DNA of 50,180 bases from the IMG/VR virus record IMGVR_UViG_3300036398_002804, positions 1-50,180 of that record; one strand, 5' to 3'. A program made the translations under genes and the position numbers. Source of the DNA: a virus. Numbering within the stretch: the stretch's first letter is position 1; each line of letters begins with the position of its first letter. Under the pieces are notes generated by a model that worked only from the letters and a program-made list of their open reading frames with translations, made no database searches and was not told the origin of the DNA. Positions 13,526 to 24,375 of the stretch are shown here, piece by piece.

Positions 13526-13670
13526 CAAATCGGACATTGGGCTCGGGCCTTTTTTGAGTTATCCACAGGGTTTATCCACAGACACGCTCATACTGGTGAG
13601 TATACTGGTGAGTTATCCACAGACTAATGTGTTGCGGATCACATAAAAACCGTCTCATATACTGGTCAGT
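13526..13670. other. Candidate replication origin: DnaA boxes and iterons
   Basis: Three perfect DnaA boxes TTATCCACA (13559-13567, 13572-13580, 13613-13621) and three 12-bp repeats ATACTGGT(G/C)AGT (13590-13601, 13602-13613 in tandem, 13659-13670) lie in a 110-bp stretch between divergent operons. Further DnaA boxes lie at 14421-14429 and 15472-15480. The AT-rich 12720-12837 could be an unwinding element. Alternatively these are regulatory sites, as similar boxes occur in promoter modules. Confidence 0.5.
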
Positions 13671-14399: not shown

Positions 14400-14523
14400 C
14401 CCGAGGCGTTTTCCACAGGCTGTGGATAACTTACGATGTGTGGTTAAGATCACATAAAATCTTGTCCATATTTTGAGATTTACGGCGTGGCGATTTGATT
14501 TTGTGAGATTTTCCTGGTAAACT
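14400..14523 (+). promoter_or_regulatory. Rightward early promoter module B
   Basis: In order: CCCGAGGCGTTTTCCACAGG (14400-14419), an inverted DnaA box TGTGGATAA (14421-14429), TGTGG-N6-TCACA (14439-14454), ACGGCGTGGCG (14482-14492), TTGATT (14495-14500), 17 bases, TAAACT (14518-14523). Module D at 15451 repeats the same order. Confidence 0.65.
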
Positions 14524-15450: not shown

Positions 15451-15568
15451 CCCGAGGCGTTTTCCACAGGTTTATCCACAGGCCTTTACGTGTGATTAAA
15501 AACACACCCCAGATTCCCCAGATCTTTACGGCGTGTCGTTTGAAAATGTCAGTCCAGTCTGATAAGAT
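15451..15568 (+). promoter_or_regulatory. Rightward early promoter module D
   Basis: CCCGAGGCGTTTTCCACAGG (15451-15470, identical to module B), DnaA box TTATCCACA (15472-15480), TGTGA-TTAAAA-ACACA (15491-15506), ACGGCGTGTCG (15528-15538), TTGAAA (15540-15545), 17 bases beginning ATGTCAG, TAAGAT (15563-15568). Confidence 0.65.
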
Positions 15569-16722: not shown

Positions 16723-17442
16723 ATGACCCTAATAAGAAGCAAAGACAGGAAAGTAACCAATGCCGTATCCCCAAATGGAAAAACAGCAACAATTGCCAAC
16801 ACTTTTGGATTACCTAGTGGAAAAGCATATTCATGCCCTGGTGCCACTAGTGTTTGTGAAAGTGTTTGCTACGCAGGAAAACTAGAAAAGATATACAAAG
16901 GTGTACGCAATGTACTCCTAAACAATTGGGAACAATTAAAAGACGCTGATCAAACAACCATGACAGAGTTAATATCTGTAATGATTAATGAGTTTAGAAC
17001 AGATTGTGTTAAGCGTAATGCTAAATTGTTATTCCGCATTCACTGGGACGGTGATTTCTTTAACGATACCTACGCCAATGCCTGGAAAACTGTAATCAAT
17101 AATAATCCTGACATTCAGTTTTGGGTATACACTAGAGTAAAGAGTGCTGCTATCATCCTCAATAGTATTAGTAATCTTTCACTTTACTATTCCGCCGATA
17201 GTGAGAATATCAAAGAAGCCGTAGACTTAAAGTTAAATAACGGTATTCGTATGGCATACCTTGCAAAGAATTTTGCGGTAGGTCAAGAGCATATGAAAGA
17301 AATGATAGGCAAGGTAGGGGCTAAGTGTCCTGAGAATAAAAAGGCTATCCCACTTATCTCAACTAGTGGAAGCGCTTGCGTATCATGCAGTTTGTGTGTA
17401 TACTCTAAGAGCGACATCGTATTCTCGTCATCTAAAAAATAG
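16723..17442 (+). CDS. Gene 88-like phage protein, 239 aa
   Basis: Matches the GP88 family known from mycobacteriophages and others: an N-terminal SPNGKTATIANTFGLPSGKA, the cysteine cluster CPGATSVCESVCYAG (about 40-53), the FRIHWDGDFFN block (about 105-115), and a C-terminal CVSCSLC. The cysteines suggest an iron-sulfur or zinc site, and the FRxHxxGDF motif with the cluster recalls radical-SAM-like or nuclease cores, but the family's function is not known. Expressed from its own leaderless promoter. Confidence 0.85.
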   Translation: MTLIRSKDRKVTNAVSPNGKTATIANTFGLPSGKAYSCPGATSVCESVCYAGKLEKIYKGVRNVLLNNWEQLKDADQTTMTELISVMINEFRTDCVKRNAKLLFRIHWDGDFFNDTYANAWKTVINNNPDIQFWVYTRVKSAAIILNSISNLSLYYSADSENIKEAVDLKLNNGIRMAYLAKNFAVGQEHMKEMIGKVGAKCPENKKAIPLISTSGSACVSCSLCVYSKSDIVFSSSKK

Positions 17443-19098: not shown

Positions 19099-19178
19099 AT
19101 GTCCGATTTGTACTAATTAAGAAGATTAAACTATTTTCCCCAATCCTAATTGACATTGTCAGCCATGAGTGCTAAACT
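19099..19178 (+). promoter_or_regulatory. Promoter with TGTCCG operator for the DUF932 gene
   Basis: ATGTCCGATTTGTACTAATT (19099-19118) lies 30 bases before TTGACA (19150-19155); 17 bases later TAAACT (19173-19178). A CCTCGGGGGCCGTCCG block precedes the operator. Confidence 0.65.
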
Positions 19179-19204
19179 TAGTTAAAACGATCGAAAGGAT
19201 AAAA

Positions 19205-20221
19205 ATGGCCCACGAGTTAGAAACTCAAAACGGTGTAGCAAGTTTTGCTTCATTCCGTGAACCTGCATGGCACAATCTTGGTACCGTATTTGATACTGAG
19301 AAAAATACAAGCGAAATGCTTTCTGCTGCCAATCTTAATGGCTGGAATGTTAGACTAGAGGATTTAGAAATCCCATCTACTTTAATATCAGATAAGCAAT
19401 ATCAATATGTTGTTCGCACAAACCCTACTAATAAATCTCAAACTGATGTTTTGGGAATTGTTGGTGAGCGTTATGTTCCACTACAAAATGAAGAGTTATT
19501 TGCATTTGGTGATAACATTCTTGATGGTGGCGGGCGTTGGGAAACTGCTGGCTCTCTTAAAGGTGGGCGTGTAGTATTTGGCTCATTAGCATTAGAGCGT
19601 GAAACAATCCTTGATCCTAGTGGAGTTGCAGATAAGGTTAAGACTTATTTGCTTATCAATACATCACATGATGGCTCAATCGCTATTCAAGCAAGCATAA
19701 CACCTGTTCGTGTTGTGTGTGCTAATACTCTTAATGTTGCACTTAACCGTACACGCAAGAAAGATGGCGTAAAACAATCTTTCAAAATCCGTCATACACA
19801 AACCGCTCAGGGTAAGGTTGCCGTTGCTCGTCAAGCACTAGGCATGGCTAATTCTTACATGGACGAATTCGACAAGATGGCTCATGCTATGATATCAAAA
19901 GAAATCTCAGCAAAAGATTTTAATGATATTATTCTTGCTGCTTACCCTAAACCAGAATTAGACACTAAGGGTGCAATCAAGAAGTGGGAAAATAAAGTAG
20001 ATATGATTAACGATATCTATACAGGCGAGTTTAACGGAATGATTGCTGGTAATGCGTGGGGTGCTTTCAATGCACTAACTGAGCGTTTAGACTGGTACCG
20101 TACATCTCGTAGTGCTAATGGCGAAAGCATGTTTGCTGCTGCTTCTGGATTTGACCCTGCAACTAACGCAGAGAAAAATCGTTTGCTAACTGTTGTAAAA
20201 AATACTTTGCAACTGGTTTAG
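19205..20221 (+). CDS. DUF932 (TIGR03299) phage/plasmid-like protein, 338 aa
   Basis: Start at 19205 follows CGAAAGGA; ATGs upstream lie in the promoter. The family pattern is clear: AHELETQNGVASFASFREPAWHNLGTVFD, the WNVRLEDLEI region, GERYVPLQNEE, GGRWETAGSLKGGRVVFGSL, then VVCANTLNVAL. Proteins of this family are common on phages and plasmids near replication or early genes, but their biochemical role is not established. It has its own regulated promoter and a 3' hairpin. Confidence 0.9.
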   Translation: MAHELETQNGVASFASFREPAWHNLGTVFDTEKNTSEMLSAANLNGWNVRLEDLEIPSTLISDKQYQYVVRTNPTNKSQTDVLGIVGERYVPLQNEELFAFGDNILDGGGRWETAGSLKGGRVVFGSLALERETILDPSGVADKVKTYLLINTSHDGSIAIQASITPVRVVCANTLNVALNRTRKKDGVKQSFKIRHTQTAQGKVAVARQALGMANSYMDEFDKMAHAMISKEISAKDFNDIILAAYPKPELDTKGAIKKWENKVDMINDIYTGEFNGMIAGNAWGAFNALTERLDWYRTSRSANGESMFAAASGFDPATNAEKNRLLTVVKNTLQLV

Positions 20222-21876: not shown

Positions 21877-21975
21877 ATGTATAACGATGATGACGATATT
21901 GAGGAAATAGAGGAAGTTCCTTTTGAGGAACAACACTTAGTTGATATTGAGGTTCTAGATGAGGAGCAAGAGTAA
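21877..21975 (+). CDS. Highly acidic protein, 32 aa
   Basis: AAGGAGA 5 bases before ATG; stop overlaps the next ATG (TAATG). Over half the residues are Asp or Glu (MYNDDDDIEEIEEVPFEEQH). It could be a DNA mimic or a chaperone-like partner of the next protein (inference). Confidence 0.6.
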   Translation: MYNDDDDIEEIEEVPFEEQHLVDIEVLDEEQE

Positions 21976-22328
21976 TGGGAGCAAGAATTAATTACGTATT
22001 CAGAGACCGTGAAGACAGCCCTGCTGTAGTACTATATAGCCACTGGGGTGAGACTGAATGGCGACGGGACATAGCAATGGCTCTAAAGCATTCTAAACCT
22101 AGATGGGAAGACACATCTTACTTCACACGTATGATGATTAGTTATCTTATTCAGGATGAAGTCTTAGGAGAAACAGGTTTTGGTATTTATGCTATTAATG
22201 ACATCACTCAGGATCTAGGCGATGAAACTGTAATCATTGACATGACTAATAGAACTATCATGAATGATGTAGCAGTTGATTGGGATAATTTTATTCAGGC
22301 GTACATGCCTGTTGCTGCGGCGATCTAA
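21975..22328 (+). CDS. Conserved actinobacterial/phage protein, 117 aa
   Basis: GARINYVFRDREDSPAVVLY, SHWGETEW, then SYFTRMMISYLIQDEV and ETGFGIYAI. I know this SHWGETxW family from Actinobacteria and their phages; it has no established function. It follows the acidic 32-aa gene in the same transcript. Confidence 0.75.
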   Translation: MGARINYVFRDREDSPAVVLYSHWGETEWRRDIAMALKHSKPRWEDTSYFTRMMISYLIQDEVLGETGFGIYAINDITQDLGDETVIIDMTNRTIMNDVAVDWDNFIQAYMPVAAAI

Positions 22329-22419: not shown

Positions 22420-22650
22420 ATGATGAGAACTAGAGTTTTGCGTGCCAGCAAAGAGGAGAAGGTAGCAGTATCCATTGGCAAACTATTATCTGACTTTCAC
22501 CTTGATTTAGAAAAGGTTGGTTTTCATTTGGCTAAATCTATTCCTTACACTATTTATCGCAGGGCATTGGAAGTATTAGCAAGTGCTGAGTTTCAAGAAA
22601 ACGAAGTAGAAAAAAACAAATTGGAGTATCGTGTTGACAGACTTTTCTAG
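22420..22650 (+). CDS. Small basic helical protein, 76 aa
   Basis: GAAAGG sits between the -10 box and ATG. RASKEEKVAVSIGKLLSDFH, LDLEKVGFHLAKSIPYTIYR and RALEVLASAEFQ are helical. Similar actinophage proteins occur next to the following gene. Function unknown. Confidence 0.65.
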   Translation: MMRTRVLRASKEEKVAVSIGKLLSDFHLDLEKVGFHLAKSIPYTIYRRALEVLASAEFQENEVEKNKLEYRVDRLF

Positions 22651-22906
22651 CATATGTAATATCTTAGGCAAACTTTACTCTACCTATAAAGAAGATAAAG
22701 ATTTTAAAGACTTTATAGATTTCAATGACTTGGGTCTACCGCTTGCCTACTTCGTTGCTGAGAATCTTTGTGAGGTATCAGATGACGGGGCACGGTATAT
22801 AACAGAAACATGGACACTATTCCTAGCAGGGTTAAACCTAGAGGATACTGGTTGGTCTGATTTAGACGAGATGTTTGAAAGTGCAGAGGATGATAGCCAG
22901 CCTTAG
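22631..22906 (+). CDS. Unknown acidic protein, 91 aa
   Basis: GTG start 20 bases inside the upstream gene, with GGAG 4 bases before it. DFKDFIDFNDLGLPLAYFVA, CEVSDDGARYITETWTLFLA and an acidic end. Forms an overlapping pair with the gene at 22420. No family recognised. Confidence 0.65.
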   Translation: MLTDFSSICNILGKLYSTYKEDKDFKDFIDFNDLGLPLAYFVAENLCEVSDDGARYITETWTLFLAGLNLEDTGWSDLDEMFESAEDDSQP

Positions 22907-22930
22907 CAATAATGGCTCGGGGTATCTATT

Positions 22931-23042
22931 CCAAACCTCCAAACCTCATTTACGAAAAAGACATTAAGAACCCAATTCAAAAAATCCCAGAAAGTTTGAC
23001 AAACCTCCAAACCTCCAAACCTTTCAAACCTTCAAACCTCCA
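22931..23042. repeat. CCAAACCT repeat cluster
   Basis: Seven AAACCT words: two at 22931-22947 and five at 23000-23041, mostly spaced 8 bases (CCAAACCT units). The stretch 22907-23071 has no gene. The same word and its complement recur throughout 23300-23890. Confidence 0.6.
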
Positions 23043-23071
23043 TATCTAATATATAGATGTATAATAATATT

Positions 23072-23254
23072 ATGAGCCCAAAGCACTTTTCCAAACAAAT
23101 GTTTAGTCCTTACTTTCAATCTGATCATTATAAAAATGAATCTCCAGAGATGATAATGCAAAGGTCTATAGAGAAGAAGTTATTATGGTTTGTTACTATA
23201 CCTATAAGGGTATTACGAACTCTTTTTAAATTCCCGCCCCGCCGTAAATCATAG
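23072..23254 (+). CDS. Basic small protein, 60 aa
   Basis: TATAAT at 23060-23065 lies 6 bases before ATG (leaderless). MSPKHFSKQMFSPYFQSDHY starts the protein and a basic amphipathic end (IPIRVLRTLFKFPPRRKS) closes it. The DNA for that end takes part in a 50-bp direct repeat with the non-coding 23773-23822. No family. Confidence 0.5.
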   Translation: MSPKHFSKQMFSPYFQSDHYKNESPEMIMQRSIEKKLLWFVTIPIRVLRTLFKFPPRRKS

Positions 23255-23822
23255 TACTATTAGACATTACGAAGCGGGAAAAAAAATCCCAGAAATATAC
23301 AGATTATTCCCATAGTTATCAAACCTTTCTATACTTTTTTCCTGGTTTTCTAATACTTTTATAACTTTTTTGTTATTTTTTTATGGGGGTTTTTAGGCAT
23401 AAAAGGTTTGACAAACCATGGTATTGGGGATACAATGCATGCCGCATATGAAGGTTTGGAAGGTTTGAAGGTTTGGGATAGGGAGGTTTGGCCGCCAGAG
23501 GATTACGACGCCCTCTATAAAAACGCTCAATCACCCACTTTACTCCACTTTCCTCCATTCTTACCCTATCAAAAAAATATCAGTAAGAATTATCTTTCAT
23601 ACCAAACCTCCAAACCACCCATCCAGAAGCCTTCTAAGCCCTATTTAAGCGGGTATCAAACCATCGCTCTGGCTCCATATTGTGCATATTCTAATTATCA
23701 AACCAGATAGTTGCACATACTATCAAACCTTCATATCTGGCTATCTGGGATATCTGGCATATCTGGAATACAAGGTTTGTTATTACACTAGGGGTATTAC
23801 GATACTCTTTACATTCCCGCCG
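23186..23822. repeat. Imperfect 50-bp direct repeat, copies at both ends
   Basis: Copy 1 at about 23186-23237 and copy 2 at about 23773-23822 share GGTTTGTTAxTAxxC, GGGTATTACGA, ACTCTTT and ATTCCCGCC in the same order and spacing. Only copy 1 lies in a gene. Confidence 0.6.
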
Positions 23823-23928
23823 AATTTAGGATGCTAACCGATATTGCCCATGTTGGGCAGGGGAAGGTTTGTTAGTTCTATTTTGCGCCGAACTTTACAT
23901 TTTCCCCGATTTATGGGATAATAGGTTG
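23255..23928. other. Gene-poor region rich in AGGTTTG / CAAACCT
   Basis: No convincing gene in 674 bases, unusual in this dense genome. It holds many AGGTTTG or CAAACC words in both orientations (for example GGTTTG-AC-AAACC at about 23404-23417), four TATCTGG units 8-9 bases apart at 23734-23766, and T-rich runs at 23330-23395. A replication, packaging or RNA element is possible (inference). Confidence 0.5.
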
Positions 23929-24375
23929 ATGAGACACAAAACAGAACCACCCCACGGTACTCGTTCTGGATATGACTGGCATAGGCGAGATATGAAAGAA
24001 AGTCCATGCCGTGAATGTCAAGAAGCCGAAAGGGCTTATTGGAGACATCAAAGAGTTATTCGTAATGAACAGATAAACAGATTAAGAAAATTTAATAGAT
24101 TTCACAGACCAAATGCCAGAAGACATTTTCGTAGAAATAATACAGAACCAGGAAATTACTCTGAAGCCCAAGTACTTGTAATTTATGGGACTGATTGTCA
24201 TATATGCCAAACCCCTATAGATTTATCTGCTCCAAGACAGGTTGGAAAACCTGGATGGGAAAAAGGTTTACATATAGATCATGTATATCCTTTGTCTAAA
24301 GGTGGTTTAGATACTATAGAAAATGTAAAGCCTTCTCACGGTCAGTGTAATGTTATTAAGTGGGCTACTGTTTGA
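23929..24375 (+). CDS. HNH endonuclease, 148 aa
   Basis: The start at 23929 fits TTTACA-17-GATAAT-6-ATG (23894-23922). Residues 8-40 hold the actinophage motif HGTRSGYDWHRRDMKESPCR with a second CxxC; residues 95-145 hold the HNH core: CHICQTPID, LHIDHVYPLSKGG and IENVKPSHGQCN. It cleaves DNA; in phages such enzymes serve packaging or homing. No terminase is nearby, so a homing or accessory role is more likely. Its end overlaps the convergent gene by 11 bases. Confidence 0.85.
   Translation: MRHKTEPPHGTRSGYDWHRRDMKESPCRECQEAERAYWRHQRVIRNEQINRLRKFNRFHRPNARRHFRRNNTEPGNYSEAQVLVIYGTDCHICQTPIDLSAPRQVGKPGWEKGLHIDHVYPLSKGGLDTIENVKPSHGQCNVIKWATV

Follow-up and report, generated by a model that had tools for sequence, protein, structure and literature searches.

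A conserved gene-poor kilobase of freshwater actinophages is most likely a control site for the start of replication and perhaps also marks the genome end

What does a phage encode in a kilobase that is crowded with copies of one seven-base word and holds next to no genes? This question is raised by positions 22907-23928 of the window, by which we mean the whole 50,180-nucleotide stretch of DNA analysed here (the entire virus record IMGVR_UViG_3300036398_002804, IMG/VR class 'linear'). An earlier note, made from the letters alone, had offered four possible roles for this stretch, namely an origin, a packaging site, a silencing target or a structural RNA. Our analysis indicates that the gene-poor kilobase is most likely a site that controls the start of replication, and that the same site perhaps also marks the genome end. 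Both processes are poorly understood in this setting, as little is clear about how replication starts in large virulent actinophages or how the second repeat is copied in phages whose terminal repeats are very long (T5, SPO1 and BE type).

The enrichment of the word was confirmed by counting it across the whole record, a check that the earlier note had proposed. CAAACCT/AGGTTTG occurs 43 times in the 50,180 bases, 17 of them within 22907-23928, while the next-richest 1-kb window has 4 copies; equal density was therefore not found elsewhere. Dinucleotide-shuffled versions of the stretch averaged 0.18 copies and never exceeded 3, compared to the 17 real ones. As had been claimed, the word runs in both directions, with ten forward copies (CAAACCT starting at 22932, 22940, 23000, 23008, 23016, 23025, 23033, 23320, 23603 and 23724) and seven reverse copies (AGGTTTG starting at 23404, 23452, 23461, 23469, 23484, 23773 and, as the last, 23865). 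The first seven forward copies form the left array (22931-23041), in which a repeat search found CATTTACGA and AAAAAATCCCAGAAA interspersed. This array had been described as a tandem with an 8-base period; the tandem is real but broken, as it covers 22931-22946 and resumes at 23000-23040 with a spacing of 8-9 bp.

That the stretch is nearly gene-free was likewise borne out. A single small ORF is listed (23057-23254), which is probably a real, leaderless gene on the forward strand that begins with MSPKHFSKQMFSPYF and spans 23072-23254, behind a TATAAT -10 box at 23060-23065. Counterparts with the same start context are present in L043, L054, L060, L065 and L066. A hidden or frameshifted gene was ruled out as an explanation of the stretch, since its remainder is conserved as DNA words. 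We also discarded a lambda-type immunity region, as there is no sign that the gene lying between the two arrays encodes a repressor; in L054 the gene at this place looks membrane-spanning (by eye).

The stretch further contains a promoter, a second repeated word (ATTACGA), 10-bp repeats and a module of some 50 bp that is present twice, all of which were absent from the earlier note. An AT-rich stretch with T tracts (23328-23403), conserved in an alignment of 23 relatives and a candidate unwinding element, lies upstream of a well-spaced, rightward sigma-70-type promoter (23408-23436), with TTGACA at 23408-23413, a 17-bp spacer and TACAAT at 23431-23436. The -35 box of this promoter is overlapped by the AGGTTTG at 23404. 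Directly past the expected transcription start, the right array on the reverse strand (23450-23490) carries AGGTTTG at 23452, 23461, 23469 and 23484. It is followed on the forward strand by an ATTACGA site (23502-23508), the core with its 10-bp direct repeats (CCACTTTACT CCACTTTCCT CCATTC, 23535-23560), which is nearly invariant in 50 relatives, and the element ATCAGTAA (23579-23586). DnaA boxes (TGTGGATAA) come next in most relatives and are absent here; at or beyond their site, the window has extra CAAACC words (23603, 23611, 23657, 23699 and 23724, spanning 23603-23730). Four forward TATCTGG words at 8-9 bp spacing (23734-23766), also right of the core, make up a third repeated word. The two copies of the module, which belongs to repeat families D5, D8 and D9, both lie on the forward strand, at 23187-23238 (GGTTTGTTACTATACCTATAAGGGTATTACGAACTCTTTTTAAATTCCCGCC) and 23774-23821 (GGTTTGTTATTACACTAGGGGTATTACGATACTCTTTACATTCCCGCC).

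A blastn search of the region against phage records gave no match, and we found no description of the element in the open-access literature (subscription journals were outside the scope of that search). Relatives were collected from IMG/VR by scanning for three tandem words, which gave 39 stretches, and through homologues of the flanking genes, which gave 51 loci. The array-bearing relatives repeat one layout, with CAAACCT on the left and AGGTTTG on the right, and the alignment of 23 relatives contains a nearly invariant block right of the array. Three tandem CAAACCT words were rejected as a sufficient marker, given that some of the 39 loci, such as L014, L019 and L022, lack ATTACGA and the remaining architecture. 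The core pattern (CCACTWYNCTCCACTTYNCTCC, 14-34 bases, ATCAGTAA) was present in at least 119 IMG/VR viral contig stretches, many of them in contigs of 90-118 kb, and in one contig, a MAG's, among 84,980 bacterial and archaeal species genomes. This lone match among cellular genomes may be phage contamination; the contig (L218, CANGYR010000020.1), assigned to the bin of a Chitinophagaceae MAG, has the actinophage core together with its neighbouring genes, and a contaminated bin is the probable reason. Removal of near-duplicates left at least 102 distinct loci, the window included. Because the core was part of the scan pattern, its invariance is partly due to selection; it had first been noticed in loci found by other means, before the pattern scan, and the promoter, arrays, ATTACGA and DnaA boxes lie outside the pattern by which the 102 loci were picked.

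Conserved as non-coding DNA, the stretch is common to these at least 102 distinct IMG/VR loci, which keep its parts in a fixed order. On the left, composite repeats of CAAACCT and ATTACGA are followed by the small leaderless gene, the AT-rich tract and the promoter, whose consensus is TTGACA-N17-TATAAT; on the right come AGGTTTG words, one ATTACGA, the 10-bp CCACTWTCCT repeats, ATCAGTAA and, in 71 of the 101 scorable loci, tandem DnaA boxes. Across the 102 loci, CAAACC[TA] occupies -900 to -200 relative to the block and AGGTTTG -200 to 0, while ATTACGA occurs almost only on one strand and is concentrated, like CAAACC[TA], upstream of the core. In 99 of the 102 loci, the 260 bp preceding the core contain a promoter of the form TTGACA-N16-18-TAnnnT, and in all but two (100/102) the last 140 bp before the core carry two or more AGGTTTG-like words. 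Composite units, in which a TTTTCC-like tract follows ATTACGA, number 2.17 per upstream region of the relatives versus 0.018 in shuffled sequence, and each genome among the relatives examined has the array at a single site. In five loci (L006, L063, L065, L081 and L086), though not in the window, leftward promoters of the same AGGTTTGACA type were seen in the left array. L054, which shares its contig with L006, has a GC-rich hairpin followed by TTTT further left, possibly the end of a short leftward RNA.

Gene order upstream of the locus is conserved as well, 72-87 loci having homologues of 21975-22328, 22420-22650 and 22631-22906, and the genes that follow the locus differ from one relative to another. 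The array does not belong to the adjacent HNH endonuclease gene (23935-24375), because several contigs with an HNH homologue (L067-L072 and L075) have no array; the N-terminal part of this endonuclease also matches PHROGs labelled WhiB-like. No initiator protein was recognised beside the locus. The two nearest conserved upstream neighbours (22420/22423-22650 and 22631/22634-22906) gave no convincing family or fold match. Structure prediction returned a confident all-helical fold for the protein of 22634-22906 (pLDDT 94) and a modest model for that of 22423-22650 (pLDDT 77.5), neither of which had a PDB match with E below 1. These two proteins are the nearest conserved candidates for binding the repeats.

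The distances between the parts are constrained, too. In the relatives, ATTACG lies 32-34 bp from the core and the core 44-46 bp from ATCAG, which is 16-17 bp away from the first DnaA box in 69 of 72 cases; the distance from one box to the next is mostly 11-12 or 33-34 bp. Between the -10 box and ATTACG the distance is mostly 47 to 130 bp and changes in steps of approximately 48, 61, 71, 81, 93, 102 and 112 bp, the window's 71 bp being one of them. Among periods of 6 to 16 tried on 36 collapsed dissimilar lineages, the best was 10.5 bp (R 0.70; 0 of 2000 jittered sets as high), whereby collapsing lessens but does not remove the effect of kinship among the IMG/VR relatives, which are not independent. 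Phasing at 10.5 bp points to a constraint of the DNA helix, so that a protein bound at ATTACGA and those bound at the promoter or array should sit on one side of the helix.

The density of perfect DnaA boxes is 1.92 per 220 bp immediately past the start of the core versus 0.009 elsewhere in the flanks, and in the 102 loci the boxes are concentrated from 0 to +200 of the block, with nearly all of them pointing the same way. At the core, the window and 29 further scorable loci have no DnaA-like boxes. Three or more downstream CAAACC words were found in 11 of these 30 box-less loci versus 6 of the 68 loci with at least two boxes, which suggests that the extra CAAACC words may replace the missing DnaA boxes in the window's lineage. 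Pairs of DnaA boxes are also present 9-12 kb upstream of the locus in five of the six relatives with enough sequence, and given this additional occurrence about 10 kb upstream, the boxes could serve transcription control. The window has such boxes in another gene-poor zone, roughly 10 kb ahead of the array, at 13559-13621, 14409-14429 and 15460-15480 (TTATCCACA four times, TGTGGATAA once and TTTTCCACA twice), where they sit in leader-like stretches that repeat the motifs CCCGAGGCGTTTTCCACAGG and GAAAATGTCAG and precede small early genes; their distance from the array resembles the lengths of BE terminal repeats. GC skew has no clear turn at the locus and was discarded as an origin test, since it follows gene direction and is uninformative.

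The possible link to the genome end comes from Streptomyces cluster BE phages (Stanwilliamsviridae), which, judged by portal, helicase and early genes, are distant kin of the freshwater phages. Identity to this group is 46% for the portal and 38% for DnaB helicase (both measured from the 108-kb relative G1), 53% for DUF932 and about 50% for GP88; the window's DUF932 protein (19169-20221) and GP88 protein (16723-17442) have counterparts in the BE terminal repeat. In the joined genome, the BE early genes are followed by a non-coding stretch of some 1.3 kb that is syntenic in position with the freshwater locus. In all five BE phages examined (Evy, NootNoot, Riptide, LilMartin and TomSawyer), this region carries 4-6 [AT]TTACGA words, which lie on one strand and average about 0.1 in shuffled sequence, and it has composite units like TTTACGATAGTGTCCAAAATTTCCCAGAGATT that resemble those of the freshwater relatives. 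The freshwater locus thus has the Stanwilliamsviridae-type boundary feature, a syntenic site after DUF932 early genes with [AT]TTACGA units, and both groups share the order of ATTACGA units, last ATTAC site and DnaA boxes. The kinship of the two regions rests on synteny, words and order, the sequences being neither alignable nor matched by blastn.

The BE1 genome ends were mapped from read starts and twofold coverage (PMC5764925). The exact edge of the BE terminal repeat falls directly before CATTACACAC in four phages and before TATTACACAC in NootNoot, with [CT]ATTACACAC conserved at the edge in all five. A DnaA pair lies 60-95 bp outside this edge, and no DnaA boxes were found at the other end of the BE terminal repeat. 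By analogy, a terminal-repeat edge or genome end of the window is predicted near 23500, at the ATTACGA site. Contig ends cluster only weakly at the predicted edge: the starts of contigs L128 and L153 fall no more than 4 bases from ATTACGA, and six contig ends lie within 70 bp of the core. This is a weak hint, and assembly breaks at conserved DNA would look alike; collapsed assemblies cannot show a terminal repeat. Near the end of the Loccivirinae phage Circinus (L229; Streptomyces phage, MK620896, 118740-119040), a non-coding stretch has reverse TTTACGA-like units and clustered DnaA boxes, in reversed order relative to the units; the module may be wider in the family.

We favour, with moderate confidence, a cis-acting site on which several proteins would assemble to start replication, placed at or over the edge of a long direct terminal repeat, so that one locus would set both the replication start and the genome end. 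This explanation is based on the conserved order and spacing, the helical phasing, the DnaA boxes, the synteny with the BE end and the absence of conserved RNA structure. One phage protein would bind CAAACCT/AGGTTTG and another ATTACGA, on one face of the helix, and host DnaA would join the complex in relatives with boxes; in the window's lineage, the extra CAAACC words may stand in for these. Transcription from, or melting at, the rightward promoter might then help to open the adjacent AT-rich tract, onto which the phage's own DnaB-like helicase and primase would be loaded; in relative G1, genes for a helicase of DnaB type and a primase of DnaG type are present. Initiation at the terminal-repeat edge could also supply the second repeat copy needed at packaging. 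It is a more tentative proposal, possible rather than probable, that one phased nucleoprotein locus couples DnaA-using initiation to the terminal-repeat edge and has been kept across freshwater actinophages and BE phages, with some lineages, including the window's, having swapped DnaA boxes for phage-type repeats.

Could the locus be a genome-end or packaging site only, at which terminase cuts and the terminal repeat ends, the DnaA boxes being incidental or regulatory? The synteny with the mapped BE ends, the motif conserved at the BE edge and the two contigs that start next to ATTACGA would be in line with this. However, rigidly spaced DnaA boxes in 71 of 101 loci and a strong phased promoter exceed the needs of a cut site, and the six contig ends near the core may merely be assembly breaks, so that we consider this reading rather unlikely. 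We regard as improbable an operator array, in which a phage regulator on AGGTTTG/CAAACCT would control the promoters leaving the locus. Such control would fit the 8-9 bp word spacing, the position of AGGTTTG over the -35 box or in the promoter spacer, and the same-form leftward promoters of the five loci named above. Yet the array occurs at a single place per genome, and ATTACGA, the 10-bp repeats, ATCAGTAA and the DnaA elements are rigidly spaced downstream of the start site, ahead of genes that vary among relatives. Other strong promoters in the window lack AGGTTTG, which also rules out a phage-wide regulon.

The structural RNA proposed in the earlier note was not supported. The strong promoter, with no conserved ORF right behind it, might yield a structured non-coding RNA for replication or regulation, as in RedRock-type origins (PMC7157519), and the window's own RNA folds well (z -3.7). 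This stable fold stems from opposite-facing repeats, however, and RNAalifold found 0 consensus pairs over 50 aligned relatives, while the single Rfam match was far below the gathering score (E 0.47). Moreover, length differences in 10.5-bp steps reflect a constraint of the DNA helix and not of RNA, which leaves an RNA-based mechanism very improbable. Helical phasing combined with no conserved RNA structure argues that the locus would act as DNA, through predicted bound proteins. Hardly credible, finally, is a parS-like partition centromere with a ParB- or ParR-type protein on short direct repeats. RedRock parS does consist of eight direct repeats of 8 bp (PMC7157519), but no partition genes (parA/parB) were present among the proteins scanned, which covered part of the genes, and partition alone would leave the promoter, 10-bp repeats and DnaA boxes unexplained. 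Nothing in the analysis points to a silencing target. From the four initial proposals, origin and genome end or packaging are thus best supported, owing to the conservation over at least 102 loci, the DnaA boxes, the phasing and the BE-end synteny.

A joint initiation and terminal-repeat locus would, if true, explain at the DNA level the duplication, at packaging, of terminal repeats that are about 10 kb long. The question is directly testable, as the locus is compact, is shared by 100 or more loci of environmental phages and has its counterpart in Streptomyces phages that can be cultured and whose ends are mapped. It also provides a sequence tag that identifies a large uncultured phage group.

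Several known systems resemble the locus in part. Arrayed repressors such as MetJ and omega bind boxes of 7-8 bp, and their operator arrays share with the locus 7-8 bp tandem boxes that overlap promoters; in contrast to these, the array described here is one part of a larger fixed block, and no ribbon-helix-helix protein was identified. Like most relatives, iteron origins that contain DnaA boxes, such as the phage P1 RepA origin, combine short tandem repeats, an AT-rich tract, DnaA boxes and fixed spatial relations. Tandem candidate initiator-binding repeats in a non-coding region and, beside them, the candidate unwinding element fit such origins, even though the window itself is devoid of DnaA boxes; the 7-bp words at 8-9 bp spacing are shorter than usual iterons, and no adjacent initiator gene was recognised. 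The RNA-based origins of the cluster A mycobacteriophages RedRock and Alma, which serve prophage replication beside parABS (PMC7157519), are likewise short non-coding actinophage regions with suspected strong transcription, whereas the locus has no conserved RNA structure and is helically phased at the DNA level. As for the terminal-repeat boundary of BE phages, no AGGTTTG array, consensus promoter or CCACTWTCCT repeats were seen there, its DnaA boxes form an inverted pair whereas the freshwater ones are tandem, and its genome end is mapped whereas that of the freshwater phages is predicted by analogy. Nevertheless, both are non-coding regions after early genes, with one-strand [AT]TTACGA words, composite units ending in TTTCCCAGA-like tracts and DnaA boxes downstream.
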